This document shows, piece after piece, positions 22,966 to 32,293 of a stretch of 64,000 nt of DNA. The position numbers and the translations under genes are program-made. The stretch is from Spirochaetota bacterium (lineage in GTDB: Bacteria; Spirochaetota; UBA4802; JAFGJZ01), in contig JAKPJF010000053.1 of NCBI GenBank assembly GCA_029554345.1, forward strand, positions 62,001 through 126,000. The letters are read 5' to 3'. The notes beneath the pieces were generated by a model. That model worked only from the letters and a program-made list of their open reading frames with translations. It was not told where the DNA came from and did no database searches. The stretch's first letter is position 1. Each line of letters opens with the position of its first letter.

Positions 22966-23751
22966 ATGTTTACAAAAACAATTATTCTATTTGTTTCTTT
23001 ATTTTCAGCTTTGTCATGCGCAGGCATTGAAAAAAAAACTAATGATGTCAATTTCGCTCTTGTCGCAAATACCCGTCCGGAATCAGCTTTTAAGACAAAT
23101 CCGGCCGAACTGGCAAAACTTATTGATTCAATCAATAAAGAAAACCCGACATTTCTGATTCATCTCGGAAATTTGATTCAGGGCGGTTTATCAAAAAGCG
23201 GAATTATAAAAAATGATGTTGAAAATCAGCTGGATTCTGCAAAAAAAGAATTCTCACGTTTCAGATCCATCGCATATTTTATACCTTCAGAACACGATAA
23301 GTTCGATGACAGTTTTGATCTTTTCAATAAAAGAGAAAATCATGGAGAATATTTTTCATTTAATTACGGAACTCTGCATTTTATCGCGCTAAACGCTTCA
23401 AATTCAGGAAGAATTATCACCGAAGACCAGTTAATCTGGCTGAAGTCAGACATTCAAAAATACAAAAATTCAAAAATAATTATATTTTCAAAAATACCTT
23501 TTTTCGCTCCGCCGAACACCAAAACACAGACTATCGCCAATCCTTCAGAAGCCCACAGTATTCTTTTAAAATATAACGTTATCGCAGTTATTTCCTCAGA
23601 ATCAGGTTCTGAATACGATATTAATAAAGACGGAGTCCGCCATATCAATCTCCCGCTTCCATCCATTGATGATAAACGTAAAAAATACGATTACTATATA
23701 ATTCAAATACTCAACGGCAAACTATCAACTGAAGGAAAAATAATAAAATGA
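22966..23751 (+). CDS. Lipoprotein with metallophosphoesterase fold but lost metal ligands
   Basis: From the ATG at 22966 the product (261 residues) opens with a lipoprotein signal (MFTKTIILFVSLFSALSC, lipid on Cys18). A TTG at 22864 and an ATG at 22909 are alternative starts, but the later one leaves room for a promoter. The chain follows a purple-acid-phosphatase-like layout: FALVANTR where DTH is expected, HLGNL for GDL, PSEHD for GNHD, FSKIP for HHP, and SSESGS for GHxH. The linking segments YFSFNYGTLHFIALNAS and EDQLIWLKSDI are well kept. It is therefore probably a non-catalytic surface or periplasmic binding protein. Its stop overlaps the next gene by 4 bases. Confidence 0.75.
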   Translation: MFTKTIILFVSLFSALSCAGIEKKTNDVNFALVANTRPESAFKTNPAELAKLIDSINKENPTFLIHLGNLIQGGLSKSGIIKNDVENQLDSAKKEFSRFRSIAYFIPSEHDKFDDSFDLFNKRENHGEYFSFNYGTLHFIALNASNSGRIITEDQLIWLKSDIQKYKNSKIIIFSKIPFFAPPNTKTQTIANPSEAHSILLKYNVIAVISSESGSEYDINKDGVRHINLPLPSIDDKRKKYDYYIIQILNGKLSTEGKIIK

Positions 23752-24704
23752 GTCTTCTTGAAGTCAAATCACTTTATGCAGGTTTCAGAATAAGAGACAA
23801 ACTGTATCCCGCGGCCAGAGATATCTCTTTTACTCTTGATAAAGGTCACGCGTTGGGTCTAATCGGAGAAAGCGGATGCGGAAAAACAGTTACAGCTTAT
23901 TCTATTATGCGGCTTCTTCAGAATCCCGGTGAAATAATATCCGGATCGGTATATTATAAAGATGAGGACCTTCTGCAATGCAGCGAAGCTGAGATGCGCC
24001 TGAAAAGAGGAAAAGAAATTTCAATGATATTTCAGGAGCCGTCAACAGCTCTTGATCCCTGCTACACAGCAGGATATCAAATATCTGAAACAATTCTCGC
24101 CCATCAGAATATTTCAAAAAAAGAAGCACGTAACAAAGCCATAGAACTTATTGACAGCATGAAAATTCCTGATCCCGTAAAAATATACTCATGCTATCCG
24201 CACGAACTATCCGGCGGCATGCAGCAGAGAATTATGATTGCATCAGCACTTGCTTCCGGCTCTTCCCTTATGATTGCAGATGAACCTACAACAGCACTGG
24301 ATGTAACCGTTCAGTCGCAAATATTATCAATATTAAAAAGCAAGGTTAAAAACGAAGGGCTTTCATTGATATTTATTTCACACGATCTCGGCATTACGGC
24401 AAATCTTTGTGAACGTACTGCTGTTTTATATGCCGGCGAAATCGTTGAAATTGGATATTCAGAAACAATTTTCTCTGATCCGATGCACCCTTACACACAA
24501 GCTCTCATCGAATCAATTCCTGCACAAAACTGCAAAGAAAAACTCTTGAATCCTATACAGGGAAACGTTCCGCCTATAGACTATGAAACAATGGGCTGCC
24601 GTTTTTACGACAGATGCAGAGAACGCAGTCAGGAATGTCTCGAAAAAAAGGTTTTGCTTGAAGAAAAGAAAAAAAATCATTCGGCAAGATGCATAAAAAA
24701 ATGA
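23748..24704 (+). CDS. Oligopeptide/dipeptide-type ABC transporter ATPase, unpaired
   Basis: This 318-residue subunit is of the OppD/DppD type: Walker A GESGCGKT, signature LSGGMQQRI, Walker B LMIADEPTTALD, and the C-terminal oligopeptide-transporter extension with CRFYDRCRERSQEC. These residues place it as an importer ATPase for peptides or nickel. The second ATPase (OppF), both permeases and the binding protein are not adjacent. It is coupled by a 4-base overlap to the dead-phosphoesterase lipoprotein gene, which may be its substrate-handling partner. That link is inferred from the overlap only. Confidence 0.92.
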   Translation: MSLLEVKSLYAGFRIRDKLYPAARDISFTLDKGHALGLIGESGCGKTVTAYSIMRLLQNPGEIISGSVYYKDEDLLQCSEAEMRLKRGKEISMIFQEPSTALDPCYTAGYQISETILAHQNISKKEARNKAIELIDSMKIPDPVKIYSCYPHELSGGMQQRIMIASALASGSSLMIADEPTTALDVTVQSQILSILKSKVKNEGLSLIFISHDLGITANLCERTAVLYAGEIVEIGYSETIFSDPMHPYTQALIESIPAQNCKEKLLNPIQGNVPPIDYETMGCRFYDRCRERSQECLEKKVLLEEKKKNHSARCIKK

Positions 24705-25155: not shown

Positions 25156-26448
25156 TCATTGTATCTTTTTTGCAACACAATCCGGCAGTTGCGCTTTAAC
25201 ATCTTTCTCAACGCAGTCTTCAATCTCTTTTATGGATGACTGAATTTCTTTTTGCAAAAAATGATTTCTATAAAGAGTCGGAGTCATACCAAACTTCTTT
25301 TTAAATGCCGTATTGAACACAGACTTGGAATTAAAACCCGAATCAAGACTCGCATGAAGAATATTTAATTCTTTTTCAGTATTCGAAATAATCCCCGCAG
25401 CAAAGTCTATTCTGTAATCATTAACAAAATTAAAGAAATTCTTACCGAAAGTATCATTTATTATTTGTGAAATGTTATGTGTTGACACATCTATTTTTCG
25501 GGAAAAGTCTTTTATAGAAAAATCAGGATCAAGATAAGGTTTTTCCACATCCATGCAGTGATTTATACGCTTCAGATATTCTTCTTTAAGAGATTCGGAT
25601 ATCACATTTTTCCGGTATTTCGCATACCCATGCACTTCTCCTGCATAATCCGGATTTATTAGTCCGTTTGGATAATTATCAGGTGAAACTTTTCCAAGAA
25701 TATAATAACCGGCCGAATAGATAGAAATTACAGTAATAAATGAATTAACCAGGGACAATATCTCCGGAAAAAAAGGTATCTTTATTATATGGAAAAAAGT
25801 CCAGAAATGAGCAAATGATTCTATATAATAGAAATTAAGGGAAAGGAATGGAAGAAGCCAAAGAATAAAAACTGCAAACAAAAAAACAAGAAGCCAAGTT
25901 GTCGAAGCCCTTTTCATCCCAGGAAAAATTATTTTTTGTCTGCTTCGGTATCTAAAGACTTCCTTTAGAGAAAAAGCAAGATAACTGAATATAATTACAT
26001 ACTTTATATTCTGTGAATAAAACCTGAAACGAGTGATACCGCTTTCATCAAAATCAATAATAGAGTATGTTCCATATCCAAGATAGTGAGTGTTAAAAAA
26101 CAAACTGATGCCGAAAAAGACAAGTGCCGGAACGAAATGAATTAAATCTACGGATCTTAATCGTATATTCTTGCCAAAAAGAAAGCGTACATATAGGAGA
26201 ATCAGATATCCGTATAAAAATCCTAGTGTATCTTTCACTAAAAACAAAGGAAGATAATCAGACCACATGTGAGCCTTATAAACATAATGAAGTGCAAGCT
26301 CATAAGAAATAAACAGTATCAAAAAGGAAAAAACCCTGTCGGATCTCGACCTGCGAAAGAGCAGAAAAAATAAAAAAATACCCTGGGCTGAACCCAAAAG
26401 ACAGAATTGAGTAATTATACCATTTATTAATACAAATCTTTCAAACAT
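25156..26448 (-). CDS. Membrane-bound AraC-family transcription regulator
   Basis: This 430-residue protein has residues 1 to about 245 forming seven or eight TM segments (first about 9-28). Residues about 305-410 form an AraC double helix-turn-helix: FSIKDFSRKIDVSTHNISQI, then LHASLDSGFNSKSVFNTAFK followed by FGMTPTLYRNHF, the second-HTH signature. Membrane-anchored AraC regulators of this layout are common in Leptospira and Bacteroidetes and are thought to sense envelope or extracellular signals. It is divergent from the carbohydrate locus at 26.6 kb, across about 145 bases, and is its most likely regulator. Confidence 0.88.
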   Translation of the reverse strand: MFERFVLINGIITQFCLLGSAQGIFLFFLLFRRSRSDRVFSFLILFISYELALHYVYKAHMWSDYLPLFLVKDTLGFLYGYLILLYVRFLFGKNIRLRSVDLIHFVPALVFFGISLFFNTHYLGYGTYSIIDFDESGITRFRFYSQNIKYVIIFSYLAFSLKEVFRYRSRQKIIFPGMKRASTTWLLVFLFAVFILWLLPFLSLNFYYIESFAHFWTFFHIIKIPFFPEILSLVNSFITVISIYSAGYYILGKVSPDNYPNGLINPDYAGEVHGYAKYRKNVISESLKEEYLKRINHCMDVEKPYLDPDFSIKDFSRKIDVSTHNISQIINDTFGKNFFNFVNDYRIDFAAGIISNTEKELNILHASLDSGFNSKSVFNTAFKKKFGMTPTLYRNHFLQKEIQSSIKEIEDCVEKDVKAQLPDCVAKKIQ

Positions 26449-26592
26449 ATCTACAACTAAACTGGACTATATTTATTAAATAAAGCATTTTATATAATTT
26501 TCATTTCTAACAGGGCAGAATAATCCTATTTTTTAAAAATATCTAAAAAAAGCCATATTTTAACGTTTACTTATGAATGGTCGGAGTACTTT

Positions 26593-26703
26593 ATGGCACA
26601 TGATCCTTTTTTTTCGTTCTGTCTTATAAGATTGAACGACAAATTTTTTAAAATAAGTATGCTTAGACAGATTAAGCTCACAACCCGAGGAAATTGCCGA
26701 TGA
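26593..26703 (+). CDS. 36-residue ORF coupled to the ABC permease gene
   Basis: An ATG at 26593 follows GGAG at six bases. The 36-codon frame ends in TGA at 26701-26703, overlapping the permease ATG at 26700 (ATGA). The peptide contains two Cys and several Phe and basic residues (MAHDPFFSFCLIRLNDKFF at its start) and has no obvious TM helix. The good ribosome site plus exact stop-start overlap suggest a translated leader or small protein that couples translation into the permease gene. It could still be a chance frame. Confidence 0.45.
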   Translation: MAHDPFFSFCLIRLNDKFFKISMLRQIKLTTRGNCR

Positions 26704-27593
26704 TAAAGCTTACAGATAAAAATGAACGCCAGGCTCTCCGCTTTATGGCGCCTTTTCTGATTCTAATGCTGGTTTTTACAGTTATAGTTTTCGGAATAGG
26801 TTTCCTGACAAGTCTTACCGATGCCCAGGGGATTAATCCGGGAAAAAACATCGGGCTACTGAACTTTAAAAACATTCTCAAAGACCCATATTTCTGGAAC
26901 TCCGTTTATGTTTCATTTAAATTTGCAGCAGTATCAGTTGCAATTCAGATACCTGCTGCGTTTTTAATTTCTTTATGGATTGAAAGCCTCCCCTACAAGA
27001 AAACACAGAGTTTCCTTAAAGCCGCTTTTTTCATCCCTTCCCTGATTAATACTCTTGTAGCAGGAATACTATTCAGGCTGTTATTTTATGGAGAACAATG
27101 CATCGCCAATATTGTCATCGGATTTTTCGGAGGAAATCCTAACATGAACTGGCTTGATGATAAAACACTCGCCTTTCCGCTTCTTGTAATTGTTTCTTTC
27201 TGGCAATGTATCGGATTTCAAATTATATATTTTTCTGCCAATCTCAGATCACTTGATCAATCGCCTTATGAAGCTGCCAGAATAGACGGAGCCGGAAGAA
27301 TAAGTATTCTGAAGAACATCACTCTGCCGCTTATGAAACCCGCTTTGATTTTCATGACGATAACATCTGCAGTATCATCACTTCTGGTTTTTGACCTTAT
27401 ACTCGGTCTTTTCCAATACAATATTTACGACAATGTCACCGGAATCATTCTCTATATCTACCTAAGAGCTTTTCAATGGGATCTCGAAATCGGTGCTGCA
27501 AGCGCAGCTGGATGGATTGCTTTTTTTCTTATTCTTGCAGTGAGCCTGCTTCAGCTTAAATTTCTCGGACTCGGTGAAAAACATGAAGATTGA
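26700..27593 (+). CDS. Sugar ABC transporter permease, MalF/UgpA type
   Basis: This 297-residue inner-membrane subunit has six predicted TM segments. The EAA loop that docks to the ATPase reads YEAARIDGAGRISILKNITL. The family is the CUT1 oligosaccharide importers. The ATG at 26700 is chosen over a TTG at 26694 because GAGG lies nine bases upstream of the ATG and only three from the TTG. The next gene starts 11 bases before this one ends and carries the partner permease. The substrate is probably the product of the nearby GH5 enzyme, an inference from context. Confidence 0.9.
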   Translation: MIKLTDKNERQALRFMAPFLILMLVFTVIVFGIGFLTSLTDAQGINPGKNIGLLNFKNILKDPYFWNSVYVSFKFAAVSVAIQIPAAFLISLWIESLPYKKTQSFLKAAFFIPSLINTLVAGILFRLLFYGEQCIANIVIGFFGGNPNMNWLDDKTLAFPLLVIVSFWQCIGFQIIYFSANLRSLDQSPYEAARIDGAGRISILKNITLPLMKPALIFMTITSAVSSLLVFDLILGLFQYNIYDNVTGIILYIYLRAFQWDLEIGAASAAGWIAFFLILAVSLLQLKFLGLGEKHED

Positions 27594-29631
27594 AAACAGA
27601 TTTTCAGGATTGGACGGGTTGCGCGCCGCAGCATGTCTATTGGTAATATTACATCATGTCGCTCAGAGACTGGACATATATTCTCAGCATTTCATTCTTC
27701 AGCATATACAGCTCTTCTTTCTGATGGGAAACACCGGTGTAAGCTTTTTTTTCGTACTCAGCGGATTTCTCCTTTCCTATCCGTTCTGGAAAAACTATAT
27801 TTCAAATCTTGATTTTCCTGACATATCAAATTATGCTAAAAGAAGAGCTGCACGCATAATTCCGGGCTATTACGCTTCATTCGCAGTAAGTATAATTCTT
27901 GCGCTGCTCTTTATTCCTGACATGGATTATTTTGCAAGAAGGCTTATCACGGGATTAACTTTCACTGCAGGATTTCATTACACAACTCTTTTTCCGTCAT
28001 TCGTAAATTCACCTCTTTGGTCAATCAGCTTTGAAGTTTTTTCTTATTTGCTGATGCCCCTTTTTATGTTTGGTCTGTTCCGTCTTGCAGGAAAAAAAAG
28101 ATCTTTCAAAAAAGGAATTATTTATTGGATATTTGCATTAATTCTGATAATCGGAATAAATCAGCTGATACACATGTATCTTACTCCGGATAATGTCAAA
28201 CGCGGCTGGGAATTCGGGGTCACAGGCGGATCTAAATGGTGGATGCCGAATTATAATCCTATAGGTTTTTTCGGACATTTCGCATTCGGAATAATTGCAA
28301 GCGGAATATCCGCTTACTTCATAAAGAATAAAAAGCTCAGAGACAGAATCGCCGATAAAAACATTTTCGACATTGCCTCAATAATAAGCTCCGCAGCCAT
28401 AATAGGACTTTTATGCTATGTGCGCACCGAGGAAGAATTCACTCACAGCATTCAGAAACAGCCTTATTACTTTCCATATCTGACAGCATTGATAGCAATA
28501 CTCTCTGTTTCGCTCGTAAATTCAAGATTTACAGGAAAGTTATTTGATTCACGCTTTATGCGCTTTACAGCAAAAATATCTTTCGGACTTTACATCTGGC
28601 ACTATGTAATAATAGCTTTGATTTCTTTCTATGTTCTTCCCGAATACATGAATTACATGGCAATTAAAGACTGGCGACTCTGGGCAGGTGCATCATTGTT
28701 GATGATTGTAATTTCATACGGTGCGGCAACACTTTCTTTTCATTTCATCGAAAAACCCTTTATCGATAGAATTCAAAATGTACGGGAAAAAGTATTTAAG
28801 TCCAAAAGAAAAATCAGGCCCGGGAAGCTTCTGAGTGCATTTTTACTTTGCGTTCTCGCTCTCCTCTTCATTTTTCCGCTTTTATGGCTGCTTGACGCAT
28901 CTCTTCGTCCGCCTCTCGAAGTAATGCAATCGCCTCCTGCAATTTTTCAGCAGTCTATATGGAAATCAATTGAAAGCTATACCAGAGATTCCTATCTGGC
29001 GGCATTCTGGCATTTTGATGTCGGCCGAGCTCTTTTCAATTCAATAATTGTGTCTTCAGGAACAATTTTTTTAACGGCAATTGTGGTATCTTTATACGCA
29101 TATGCTTTAGTGTTTATGGAATTCAAGCATAAGAAGTTTTTCCTGATTATTGCACTTTCGACTATGATGATACCTGCTAACGCGCTTATGATTCCGATGT
29201 ACAAAGTCGCAAAAAATCTTCATCTTCTTAACAGCTGGTTCGGCCTGATACTTCCCGGTGCCGTCAGCGGATTCGGTGTATTTCTTTTACGGCAGTATTT
29301 TCTGAAAATTCCGTTAGCAGTAATCGAAGCAGCTCGTATGGACGGAGCAGGACATTTGAGAATCTGGTGGCATATTATTCTTCCTCTTGCAAGACCCGCG
29401 CTTGCGGCACTTGCAATAATTCAGTTCAGAATAGTCTGGAATGATTTTCTAAATCCTGTAATAATCATGCGCGATGAAAAACTCATGACTCTTCCCGTCA
29501 GAATTCTATTGATAAACGACACCGGATCGGTCCTTGCGGCAGGTTTTATTTCAATAATAATACCATTGATTCTATTTTTAAAATTTCACAGACAGTTTAC
29601 AGAAGGACTAACAGAAGGACTGCGCAAATGA
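27583..29631 (+). CDS. Fusion of acyltransferase-3 domain and MalG-type ABC permease
   Basis: A single uninterrupted frame of 682 codons runs from the ATG at 27583 (GGTG seven bases before; a GTG at 27574 is possible). Residues about 5-395 are an acyltransferase-3/OafA domain: GLDGLRAAACLLVILHH with the catalytic His pair at 24-25, FFFVLSGFLLSYPFW, SPLWSISFEVFSYLL, and FHFIEKPF at the end. Residues about 412-682 are a complete CUT1 permease: LLFIFPLLWLLDASLRPPLE, and EAA loop EAARMDGAGHLRIWWHIILP (582-601). AT3 proteins move acyl groups across the membrane onto sugars. Joining one to an importer subunit suggests acylation or deacylation linked to sugar uptake. The ATPase is not encoded nearby. 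Confidence 0.9.
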   Translation: MKIENRFSGLDGLRAAACLLVILHHVAQRLDIYSQHFILQHIQLFFLMGNTGVSFFFVLSGFLLSYPFWKNYISNLDFPDISNYAKRRAARIIPGYYASFAVSIILALLFIPDMDYFARRLITGLTFTAGFHYTTLFPSFVNSPLWSISFEVFSYLLMPLFMFGLFRLAGKKRSFKKGIIYWIFALILIIGINQLIHMYLTPDNVKRGWEFGVTGGSKWWMPNYNPIGFFGHFAFGIIASGISAYFIKNKKLRDRIADKNIFDIASIISSAAIIGLLCYVRTEEEFTHSIQKQPYYFPYLTALIAILSVSLVNSRFTGKLFDSRFMRFTAKISFGLYIWHYVIIALISFYVLPEYMNYMAIKDWRLWAGASLLMIVISYGAATLSFHFIEKPFIDRIQNVREKVFKSKRKIRPGKLLSAFLLCVLALLFIFPLLWLLDASLRPPLEVMQSPPAIFQQSIWKSIESYTRDSYLAAFWHFDVGRALFNSIIVSSGTIFLTAIVVSLYAYALVFMEFKHKKFFLIIALSTMMIPANALMIPMYKVAKNLHLLNSWFGLILPGAVSGFGVFLLRQYFLKIPLAVIEAARMDGAGHLRIWWHIILPLARPALAALAIIQFRIVWNDFLNPVIIMRDEKLMTLPVRILLINDTGSVLAAGFISIIIPLILFLKFHRQFTEGLTEGLRK

Positions 29632-29648
29632 CTTACAAAGGAGATAAT

Positions 29649-31184
29649 ATGAAAACAAGAAAAATTGCACTGCTTCTCTTAGCGGCTGGATGCTTTTTTA
29701 CAGCCTGCACAAAATACCCGGCAGAATACAAAACTAAAGACATGTATTCTATAATGCTGAAAAACCCGGATAAAGCGATAGATTTCGCACGTTCCAGTGC
29801 AGAATTCTGGACTAAAACATATGACGATAAAAACGGCGGCTTCTTCACAATGGTTGCGCGAAACGGTGATGTTCTAGGCAATAATTACAAGTCTACATTA
29901 TCTCAAAGCAGAATAATGTACGCCTTCTCTCGCGCTTATATGCTGACAGGTGATAAAAAGTTTCTAAAGTACGCTAATTTTGCTGAAGATTTTATCAGAA
30001 CAAAGTGTTATGACAAAGAACACGGCGGTTTTTATACTACCGTTGATACAACCGGAAGAAATATCGATTTTACTTATGATATTCTTCTGAGTCAAAACAA
30101 CAGACAGAGAGAGAAATGGTCATTCATGCAGCACTATGCTCTCTTAGGATATTCAGCACTTGTAGATGCTACCCGCAACGAAAAACATTTTGATTTTCTG
30201 ATAAAATCACGCGCACTGCTCGACGAAAAACTATATGACAATAGAAAAGGATACGAAGGATATTACGAATCAGCAGATTATGACTGGAGAAATCCGAGAG
30301 GTAAAGGATTTACCCCGACCATGGATTGCGTAACAACACACGGTCTGTCTCTTTATCTTCTTACTAATGATGAGAAATATAAAGAAAGACTGATTTCCCT
30401 TGCGGATAATGTTATTAATCATATGTATCCTACGTCTCAATCAAGAAAAATCGGTTATGAAGAACAATATGATTCTGAATGGAGACCCAGAGATGAATCT
30501 TTCATTTTCATCGGCCATATGCTTAAAACTGCATGGTGTCTTCAGCGAGCGAATCTGATAAGTCCGAAAAATGAATATTCGGAAACAGCAGAAATAATTC
30601 TTCACAACATCAACGAAAAAGCATGGGACAACTCAAACGGCGGACCATACAATTTCGCAGACAGCTTCGAAGGAGTTATTACCAATGATAATAAAAACTA
30701 TTGGACTCTTGAGCAGGCAATCACCAGCGGACTTATCAATTATTATGTGACGGGAAACACCTTGTACCTTAAAATGGCAGATGAGGCATGCGGATTTTTC
30801 GAGCGTTATACAATAGATAAGGAATACGGAGACATCTTTGATGAAGTTAAACCTGACGGGAAAAGACTTAAAACAGATGAAGATGAATATAAAGGGTCTT
30901 ACTGGAAAAGCGCATATCATTCACTTGAAACAGCATATTATATTTATCTGTACGGGAATCTTTATTTCCACAGGAAAAATGCAACACTGTATTATAACAT
31001 CGAGAAATCTTCAAAGAAACGCGAGTTTCCGATGAATCCTGTTGAAGAAATTCAAAATCTCATTATCACAAAAGTCGAACACAATGGAAAAGATTACACT
31101 GATTATGATTCTAAAAAAAGAATTCTCAGAGTACCTGCGAACACTGAAGGCGAATTCAAAGTAACTTATTCGATTTCAAAATAA
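29649..31184 (+). CDS. Lipoprotein of the N-acylglucosamine/cellobiose 2-epimerase family
   Basis: The start at 29649 follows AAAGGAGATAAT; an ATG at 29628 lacks a site. The 511-residue product has a lipoprotein signal with candidate lipid Cys20 (FTAC). The (alpha/alpha)6-barrel family is recognised by ESFIFIGHMLKTAWCLQRA and SYWKSAYHSLETAY, whose His290 and His424 match the two catalytic His of cellobiose and mannobiose 2-epimerases. MDCVTTHGLSLYL gives a third conserved His. Known members are mostly cytosolic, so an exported form is unusual. It follows the permease fusion by 17 bases and ends at a shared terminator. Confidence 0.82.
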   Translation: MKTRKIALLLLAAGCFFTACTKYPAEYKTKDMYSIMLKNPDKAIDFARSSAEFWTKTYDDKNGGFFTMVARNGDVLGNNYKSTLSQSRIMYAFSRAYMLTGDKKFLKYANFAEDFIRTKCYDKEHGGFYTTVDTTGRNIDFTYDILLSQNNRQREKWSFMQHYALLGYSALVDATRNEKHFDFLIKSRALLDEKLYDNRKGYEGYYESADYDWRNPRGKGFTPTMDCVTTHGLSLYLLTNDEKYKERLISLADNVINHMYPTSQSRKIGYEEQYDSEWRPRDESFIFIGHMLKTAWCLQRANLISPKNEYSETAEIILHNINEKAWDNSNGGPYNFADSFEGVITNDNKNYWTLEQAITSGLINYYVTGNTLYLKMADEACGFFERYTIDKEYGDIFDEVKPDGKRLKTDEDEYKGSYWKSAYHSLETAYYIYLYGNLYFHRKNATLYYNIEKSSKKREFPMNPVEEIQNLIITKVEHNGKDYTDYDSKKRILRVPANTEGEFKVTYSISK

Positions 31185-31226
31185 GAGAAATAAGCAATAG
31201 AACACCTTGATTACTCTTCATAATAA

Positions 31227-31260
31227 AATAAAAAACGGGCATTTAAGCCCGTTTTTTATT
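31227..31260. terminator. Bidirectional terminator between epimerase and endoglucanase genes
   Basis: Perfect 14-bp arms 31227-31240 and 31247-31260, with GC core CGGGC/GCCCG, loop ATTTAA, and A and T runs on both sides. It lies 43 bases past the epimerase stop and overlaps the stop codon of the facing GH5 gene (31256-31258), so it serves both. Confidence 0.9.
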
Positions 31261-32293
31261 CTGCTATTTTCTTTTTAACAAATCTTCCGGATTCAGTAAG
31301 AAGTGAATTATTCCACTTTCCTGTAGGCTTTGCCTCAACTTTCAAAGCAGATGCAGATTCCATTTTATTAAACAAAGACCAGTTGCACCAGCTAAGCTTG
31401 TGCTTATTCATAAAATCAATCCATATCAGGCTTTCTTCAATGTCAACAAAACCGTCGCCGTTATTTTCACACGTTCCCCATTCTGAAACAAAAATAGGAA
31501 GACCTTTTGAAATAGCACTTTCAGCTCTGTCTCTAAATGTTTTTTTATGAGTCGCTGCATAAAAATGAAGAGCATATGCGACATTCTTTCCGTTTTTTAC
31601 AGGAAACTCCGCTGCAATATCAACATCCTGTGACCATGATGTAGTTCCGACGATTATTATATTGTCTGACCCATTTGCACGTATCGTTTCAATTACAGAT
31701 TCGGAATATTTTCTTACATCCAACCATTGATCGTTTATAGGTTCATTAAATATTTCAAAAATAACATTTGGGTATTGCCCGTATCCGGCAGCCATTTCAG
31801 CGAAAAATTTCTTGGATTCTTCGGTGTGACTGATAGCATCATGATCATGCCAGTCGATAATTACGTAAATACCCTTTTCAATTGCCGCATCAAGAACTGT
31901 TTTCAGCTTATCAATTTCCCCGGAATTTTCAAGATAACCGCCTTTGCTAACACCCATTGCAGCACGTATTACCGAGCATTTCCAATCATCAGCGAGAGTA
32001 TTTACAACATCCTTATTCCAAAATCCGTTTGACCATTGACTCCAAAACAAACTCATTCCCTTTAATTGAACGATGTTTCCGTTCTCATCACAAAGATTGA
32101 CTCCTTTTATCTGAAGTTTTCCATATTTGGCCACAGGAGATCCCGCAGGAGGTTGAGGAATCTGAATAATACTCCTTTCCACAATCGGAATATTCTCTTT
32201 CTTTGGTTCATTTTCCTTTTTACATGATAAAAGCATAACTACAGGCAAAAGCGAGCAGACAATTATAAATCGCTTTTTTAATGGAAATATCAT
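31256..32293 (-). CDS. GH5 endoglucanase (cellulase) lipoprotein
   Basis: This 345-residue protein has a lipoprotein signal (residues 1-24, LLSC with lipid Cys24) and a Lys/Pro linker. Residues about 55-340 form a glycoside hydrolase family 5 barrel, most like the bacterial endoglucanase subfamily GH5_2. Acid/base Glu184 is in IFEIFNEP, nucleophile Glu271 in IFVSEWGTC, and VIIDWHDHDAISH marks the substrate cleft. The expected activity is internal cleavage of beta-1,4-glucan or mannan on the cell surface or in the periplasm. It faces the epimerase-permease operon, sharing only a terminator, with its own promoter region to the right. Confidence 0.93.
   Translation of the reverse strand: MIFPLKKRFIIVCSLLPVVMLLSCKKENEPKKENIPIVERSIIQIPQPPAGSPVAKYGKLQIKGVNLCDENGNIVQLKGMSLFWSQWSNGFWNKDVVNTLADDWKCSVIRAAMGVSKGGYLENSGEIDKLKTVLDAAIEKGIYVIIDWHDHDAISHTEESKKFFAEMAAGYGQYPNVIFEIFNEPINDQWLDVRKYSESVIETIRANGSDNIIIVGTTSWSQDVDIAAEFPVKNGKNVAYALHFYAATHKKTFRDRAESAISKGLPIFVSEWGTCENNGDGFVDIEESLIWIDFMNKHKLSWCNWSLFNKMESASALKVEAKPTGKWNNSLLTESGRFVKKKIAE

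Follow-up and report, generated by a model that had tools for sequence, protein, structure and literature searches.

A spirochaete genome encodes an acyltransferase domain of the AT3 type and a MalG-type sugar permease in one protein, and this fusion is real and under strong purifying selection. The source is a 3.03-Mb metagenome-assembled genome (MAG; G000, 96% complete), and the window we analyzed is a stretch of 64,000 nucleotides, positions 62001-126000 of its contig C15. The AT3::MalG fusion is a single ORF of 685 aa (27574..29631, + strand) with ATG 27583 as the likely start. The Acyl_transf_3 domain (PF01757) is detected at residues 11-383 (E 5e-31; 108 bits vs. a cut-off of 31) and BPD_transp_1 (PF00528) at residues 503-668 of the same ORF (E 8.5e-14). 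The permease part, which spans residues 419-685 approximately, also matches the solved importer proteins SugB (E 1e-25) and MalG (E 2e-6), and a lysine- and arginine-rich linker (approximately residues 388-418, 10 K/R) joins the two parts. The AT3 motifs R-X10-H in helix 1, whose histidine is residue 28, and RXXR in the first cytoplasmic loop are intact, as are the EAA coupling loops of the fused MalG and of the neighboring MalF. The hydropathy profile gives 16 hydrophobic segments, ten from AT3 and six from MalG. As positive charge is concentrated in the odd loops and the linker, the N-terminus, linker, and C-terminus of the fusion should be cytoplasmic, and a 16-helix protein would be topologically sound because the C-terminus of AT3 and the linker should both be on the cytoplasmic side. 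C-terminal to the AT3 domain, only BPD_transp_1 was found, and not the SGNH domain after the 11th helix that defines the AT3-SGNH fusion class. AlphaFold models, built on alignments of two sequences, were of poor confidence (pLDDT 34 and 42).

A congener (G003, 'Spirochaetes bacterium isolate UR.bin167'; locus L015, JAKJGA010000001.1) shares this gene order and encodes the fusion in full length (94% identity). As order and fused frame recur in this independent assembly of a second species of the genus at a dS of about 0.64, the fusion is neither a chance product nor an assembly artefact. The dN/dS ratio between the two species was 0.044 both for the complete fusion and for its AT3 part, 0.029 for MalG, 0.219 for the linker, and 0.028 for MalF. 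The preliminary description had read this ORF as an AT3-MalG fusion and had suggested a comparison of locus conservation in related genomes, which bears that reading out. Both genomes are MAGs, and absences at 96% completeness are provisional. A separately translated MalG was also considered: the fusion has no in-frame ATG, GTG, or TTG in codons 378-450, the first MalG helix lies at residues 419-437 approximately, and the start at codon 377 sits inside the last AT3 helix, so that a usable start for a separate, complete MalG appears disfavored.

The fusion gene is part of a locus whose gene order and identities (malF, fusion, epimerase, and convergent GH5 gene) had been read correctly beforehand, as Pfam and ORF reading confirmed, and the gene content supports the proposed relation to beta-glycans. 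The CUT1-type permease MalF (26700..27593, +; 297 aa from ATG 26700; PF00528, BPD_transp_1, E 4e-12) is encoded by an ORF that overlaps that of the fusion. It is followed by the gene of a 2-epimerase lipoprotein of the AGE/cellobiose-2-epimerase superfamily (29628..31184, +; PF07221, E 5e-29), whose likely start, ATG 29649, lies 18 bases past the stop codon of the fusion and has a good ribosome-binding site (AAAGGAG, 29637-29648) ahead of it. Because of the overlap, the short spacing, and this ribosome-binding site, malF, the fusion gene, and the epimerase gene look like one operon. A convergent gene encodes a GH5 endoglucanase lipoprotein of 345 aa (31256..32293, -; PF00150, E 2e-61), and the terminator that it was thought to share with the epimerase gene is indeed seen as a terminator-like stem-loop with a 14-pair stem (31227..31260).

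On the other side, a divergent gene encodes a membrane-anchored AraC-type regulator of 430 aa (25156..26448, -; HTH_18, E 1e-12 at residues 316-395), which is kept in the congener (dN/dS 0.121) and, judged by its position, may control the malF/fusion operon. The intergenic region (26449..26699) contains a block immediately 5' of malF that is conserved in the alignment with the congener. A 36-codon ORF at 26593-26703 had been counted among the genes of the locus; it is neither a gene nor the remnant of a binding-protein gene, as the counterpart in the congener ends after 11 codons, and the stretch at 26593 thus rather represents a leader or regulatory sequence. Beyond the GH5 gene, the locus is flanked by SbcCD-like genes; the segment 32488-36628 (+) of the window contains an SbcD-like gene (recognized by reading, with no Pfam match), an AAA_27 ATPase gene, and a gene for a TPR-like protein. 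A lone OppD/DppD-type ATPase gene (ABC_tran and oligo_HPY; 23748-24704, +) lies beside a metallophosphatase gene, with no peptide permeases in the neighboring ORFs.

The fusion is rare within the phylum. Among 392 genomes of the Spirochaetota, with three candidates scored per genome, both halves were matched in at least two, namely the two congeners, and an order-level search found the fusion in 2 of 46 genomes, again this pair. The AT3 subtype alone (E 1e-20) occurs in three of the 392 genomes, and in the third (G313) it is a stand-alone gene of 450 aa with 39% identity, flanked by mnmE and a gene for a nucleoside kinase. A search of genome contigs, which reaches close relatives only, gave one fused stretch among 66 candidates, the congener, and the fusion was found in none of 11 viral contigs. 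The plasmid search returned one stand-alone AT3 of the same subtype (37% identity), near a sugar transferase gene on a Rhizobium plasmid (NZ_CP072868.1; L101 6001-7170); the PLSDB table gives no feature beneath this match. Long open frames at other MalG matches were plain MalG genes of 282-284 aa in two cases (L005 and L047), and no AT3 was seen in the ORF starts, read without Pfam, of two others (L048 and L049). The two other AT3 genes of the same genome are only about 19% identical to the fusion AT3. This distance and the rarity in the phylum suggest that the AT3 domain was probably gained and fused inside this genus.

No binding-protein (SBP) or ATPase gene adjoins the permease genes of the locus. 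The importer is thus incomplete locally, as had been described, but not on the scale of the genome, where an unlinked ATPase and orphan SBPs are present. In addition, the genome encodes a complete paralogous importer operon of the order SBP-MalF-MalG-GH94-epimerase, which is split in our assembly, with the SBP gene at the end of contig C88 and the other four genes on contig C105, and contiguous in the congener (G003:C318). By sequence, its GH94 enzyme is a cellobiose phosphorylase (3qde, 1321 bits), and the order SBP-MalF-MalG-GH94 also occurs in a genome of another family (G056). The preliminary description had named a full importer operon elsewhere, with a sugar specificity of its own, as an observation that would refute it, and this complete operon with its cellobiose phosphorylase partly corresponds to that. 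The MalF of the locus is 44% identical to the MalF encoded on C105, and the fused MalG is 50% identical to the C105 MalG and 48% to the G056 MalG. In the MalG tree, the fused, C105, and G056 proteins form one clade (100/97 support), with the fused pair placed just outside the two GH94-operon lineages, although the tree gave long-branch warnings. Among the proteins sampled, the MalF and MalG of the locus were shown at the level of sequence to be the nearest relatives of the cellobiose-operon MalF and MalG.

One OB_MalK ATPase was found in the genome (UgpC, 487 bits), encoded on contig C131 without a permease neighbor, and the genome holds several sugar importers that have no ATPase of their own. 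The earlier proposal of a shared MsmX-type ATPase is plausible in view of this single UgpC/MsmX-like protein, which would resemble MsmX and MsmK in being an orphan; such sharing is known mainly from Firmicutes, where the excerpts consulted of PMC7658222 describe it as established. Searches with SBP_bac_1 and SBP_bac_8 gave matches on contigs C2, C25, C32, C54, and C88. The match on C54 (L079, 1-546) represents the 3' part of a gene paralogous to the C88 SBP gene, truncated by the contig start and located beside pckG, and at the same pckG site the congener has two tandem SBP paralogues without permeases (G003:C158 4268-6994, L096). These orphan SBPs are at most 55% identical between the congeners vs. 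95% for the operon SBP, and they are candidate partners of the locus permeases. The check for a binding protein and an ATPase elsewhere in the genome thus yielded candidates, none of which is linked to the permease genes of the locus.

The epimerase had been described as an exported lipoprotein with two catalytic histidines, and both aspects were confirmed. It matches cellobiose 2-epimerases of the PDB (best E 1.5e-20, about 27% identity) and keeps H297 and H431, the equivalents of H247 and H377 of CsCE, as well as R95, W359, and W426; the roles of the two essential histidines are described in the parts consulted of PMC5726027. Candidate lipoboxes can be read from its sequence. Unlike the cellobiose 2-epimerases, with which it shares PF07221, the two essential histidines, and the conserved arginine and tryptophan residues, it is a lipoprotein extended by about 70 aa at its C-terminus, the acidic residues that follow the first catalytic histidine are lost (GHMLK instead of GHD-x-E), and the third histidine (H188 of CsCE) with its neighboring asparagine is uncertain, as the nearest candidate, H238, is offset and the alignments disagree. 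It scores 78.6 bits against the NF041848 equivalog, below the cut-off of 800. With the acidic residues lost and the third histidine uncertain, we regard it as a divergent member whose substrate is not readable from the sequence. It is nevertheless constrained (dN/dS 0.042), whereas the cytosolic C105 paralogue, which resembles cellobiose epimerases more closely (4z4j, 171 bits), is less so (dN/dS 0.151) and has a leucine in place of the first essential histidine in both species (L020 4434-5618, -; L021 5824-7002, +).

A search for lipoprotein epimerases matched 14 of 392 genomes, and among the neighborhoods inspected in G057, G310, G070, and G164, only that of G164, from another family, has a lipoprotein-type start together with GH5 neighbors. 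This NF041848-like epimerase has all three histidines, and its gene and two GH5 genes form a row, which indicates that export of the epimerase is not unique to this genus. The segment in G164 (L075, C16 7267-15294, -) comprises the epimerase-like gene, the two GH5 genes, and a gene for a protein of 951 aa that weakly matches DUF5060. An exported cellobiose epimerase is not reported in the literature listings we searched; in the parts consulted, PMC6643232 marks signal peptides in a figure only.

The GH5 enzyme, which we take to be of subfamily GH5_2, matches characterized Cel5 endoglucanases across the entire catalytic domain (5ihs, E 4e-91; 6gjf, E 1e-90) and has a dN/dS of 0.115. With this Cel5-type GH5, a sister operon for cellobiose, and no GH130 mannoside phosphorylase found in the genome (0 matches at 96% completeness), beta-1,4-glucan is most likely the source of the imported sugar; xyloglucan or mixed-linkage glucan would be possible, and mannan unlikely. 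The idea, already implied in the preliminary description, of a locus for mannan or acetylated mannan is disfavored by the same data. We consider it very unlikely that a GH5 mannanase releases mannobiose that is epimerized outside and then imported. An AGE-superfamily protein does adjoin the GH5 gene, and known mannan loci combine an epimerase with an importer, according to the parts consulted of PMC6385246, but the match to the beta-mannanase 1bqc reaches only E 7e-5, GH130 is missing from the search results, and the related importer operon has a cellobiose phosphorylase.

Taken at sequence level, the locus has about an even chance of being a second, diverged CUT1 importer of the cello-oligosaccharide type together with its outside enzymes, the MalG of which carries an acyltransferase. 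In such a system, the GH5 lipoprotein would act as an extracellular beta-1,4-glucanase, the epimerase lipoprotein would modify a sugar at the reducing end, either at the cell surface or within the periplasm, an orphan binding protein or the SBP of the cellobiose operon would hand over the sugar, and the single UgpC/MsmX-type ATPase would power the MalF/AT3-MalG pump. The AT3 domain would draw on cytosolic acyl-CoA and acylate an extracytoplasmic sugar near the mouth of the permease; no acyl acceptor or cytosolic de-acylating enzyme was identified in the locus. Acylation may be linked to import, as proposed beforehand, or simply take place beside it; the strict form of the link, in which the incoming beta-glucan oligosaccharide or its epimerized product is acylated and import is restricted to, or favors, the acylated sugar, appears unlikely. 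If true, it would be a CoA-driven counterpart of group translocation. The AGE superfamily includes enzymes active on acylated sugars, and in a variant of this reading, acylation may make the substrate for the periplasmic AGE-family epimerase.

A serious, though rather less than even, alternative is that AT3 acylates an envelope glycan or a lipid-linked sugar, with the fusion to MalG being incidental or serving membrane placement or dosage. The nearest AT3 relatives, in G313 and on the Rhizobium plasmid, are stand-alone and outside sugar-import operons, and the well-studied AT3 proteins modify surface glycans, as set out in the parts consulted of PMC9558356; on the other hand, the fusion, the linker frame, and both domains are constrained in two species and within a carbohydrate operon. 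That the importer is dying or repurposed, with transport lost and the fused protein acting as a sensor or scaffold, would agree with a locus without SBP and with the low identity of the orphan SBPs between the congeners, yet it is quite improbable, as the EAA loops are intact in both permeases and their dN/dS is about 0.03. To our knowledge, no AT3 protein runs in reverse. A de-acetylating importer, in which AT3 strips incoming oligosaccharides of their acetyl groups and conserves these within the cell as acetyl-CoA, therefore seems far-fetched, even though the locus is one for plant polysaccharides and natural hemicelluloses are acetylated; the GH5 matches are endoglucanases acting on unacetylated glucans, and the word 'reverse' does not occur in the 2025 superfamily paper (PMC12423673).

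Compared with known systems, the locus shares with the CUT1 importers MalFGK2, SugABC, and UgpABCE a MalF and a MalG half, both with EAA loops, but differs from them in the N-terminal AT3 domain of MalG and in the position of SBP and ATPase genes outside the operon. Its MalG falls into one permease clade with those of the cellobiose operons in this genome and in G056; these operons, however, have an unfused MalG, their own SBP, a cytosolic phosphorylase, and a cytosolic epimerase paralogue. With PF01757, R-X10-H, RXXR, and ten hydrophobic segments, the AT3 part resembles the AT3/TmAT proteins OafA, OafB, Oac, and OatA. In the parts consulted of PMC9558356, PMC7448272, PMC12423673, and PMC9833829, AT3 proteins are described as passing acyl groups outward to extracytoplasmic sugars, and the fusions listed are those with SGNH, with a racemase, and, in eukaryotes, with NRF. 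The bacterial partners given there are thus SGNH and the alanine/serine racemase (VanT), whereas here the partner is an ABC permease. The terms 'permease' and 'ABC transporter' or 'ABC' are absent from the first three papers, as are 'permease' and 'transporter' from the fourth. No AT3-permease fusion came up in the literature searched or in the parts consulted of these four papers, and the only paper retrieved that mentions both Pfam families is a table of genes. AT3::MalG is a new domain architecture built from known parts.

The active site is preserved in the exported epimerase, whereas one essential histidine has been lost from the cytosolic paralogue, which suggests that this lineage may have shifted the epimerization of the reducing end of cello-oligosaccharides to the cell exterior. 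AT3 enzymes are known for building surface glycans, and ABC sugar permeases for import. The fusion offers a compact test system for the acceptor choice of AT3 proteins, and its conservation would be the first sign, in the literature consulted, that transmembrane acylation can be linked to nutrient uptake.
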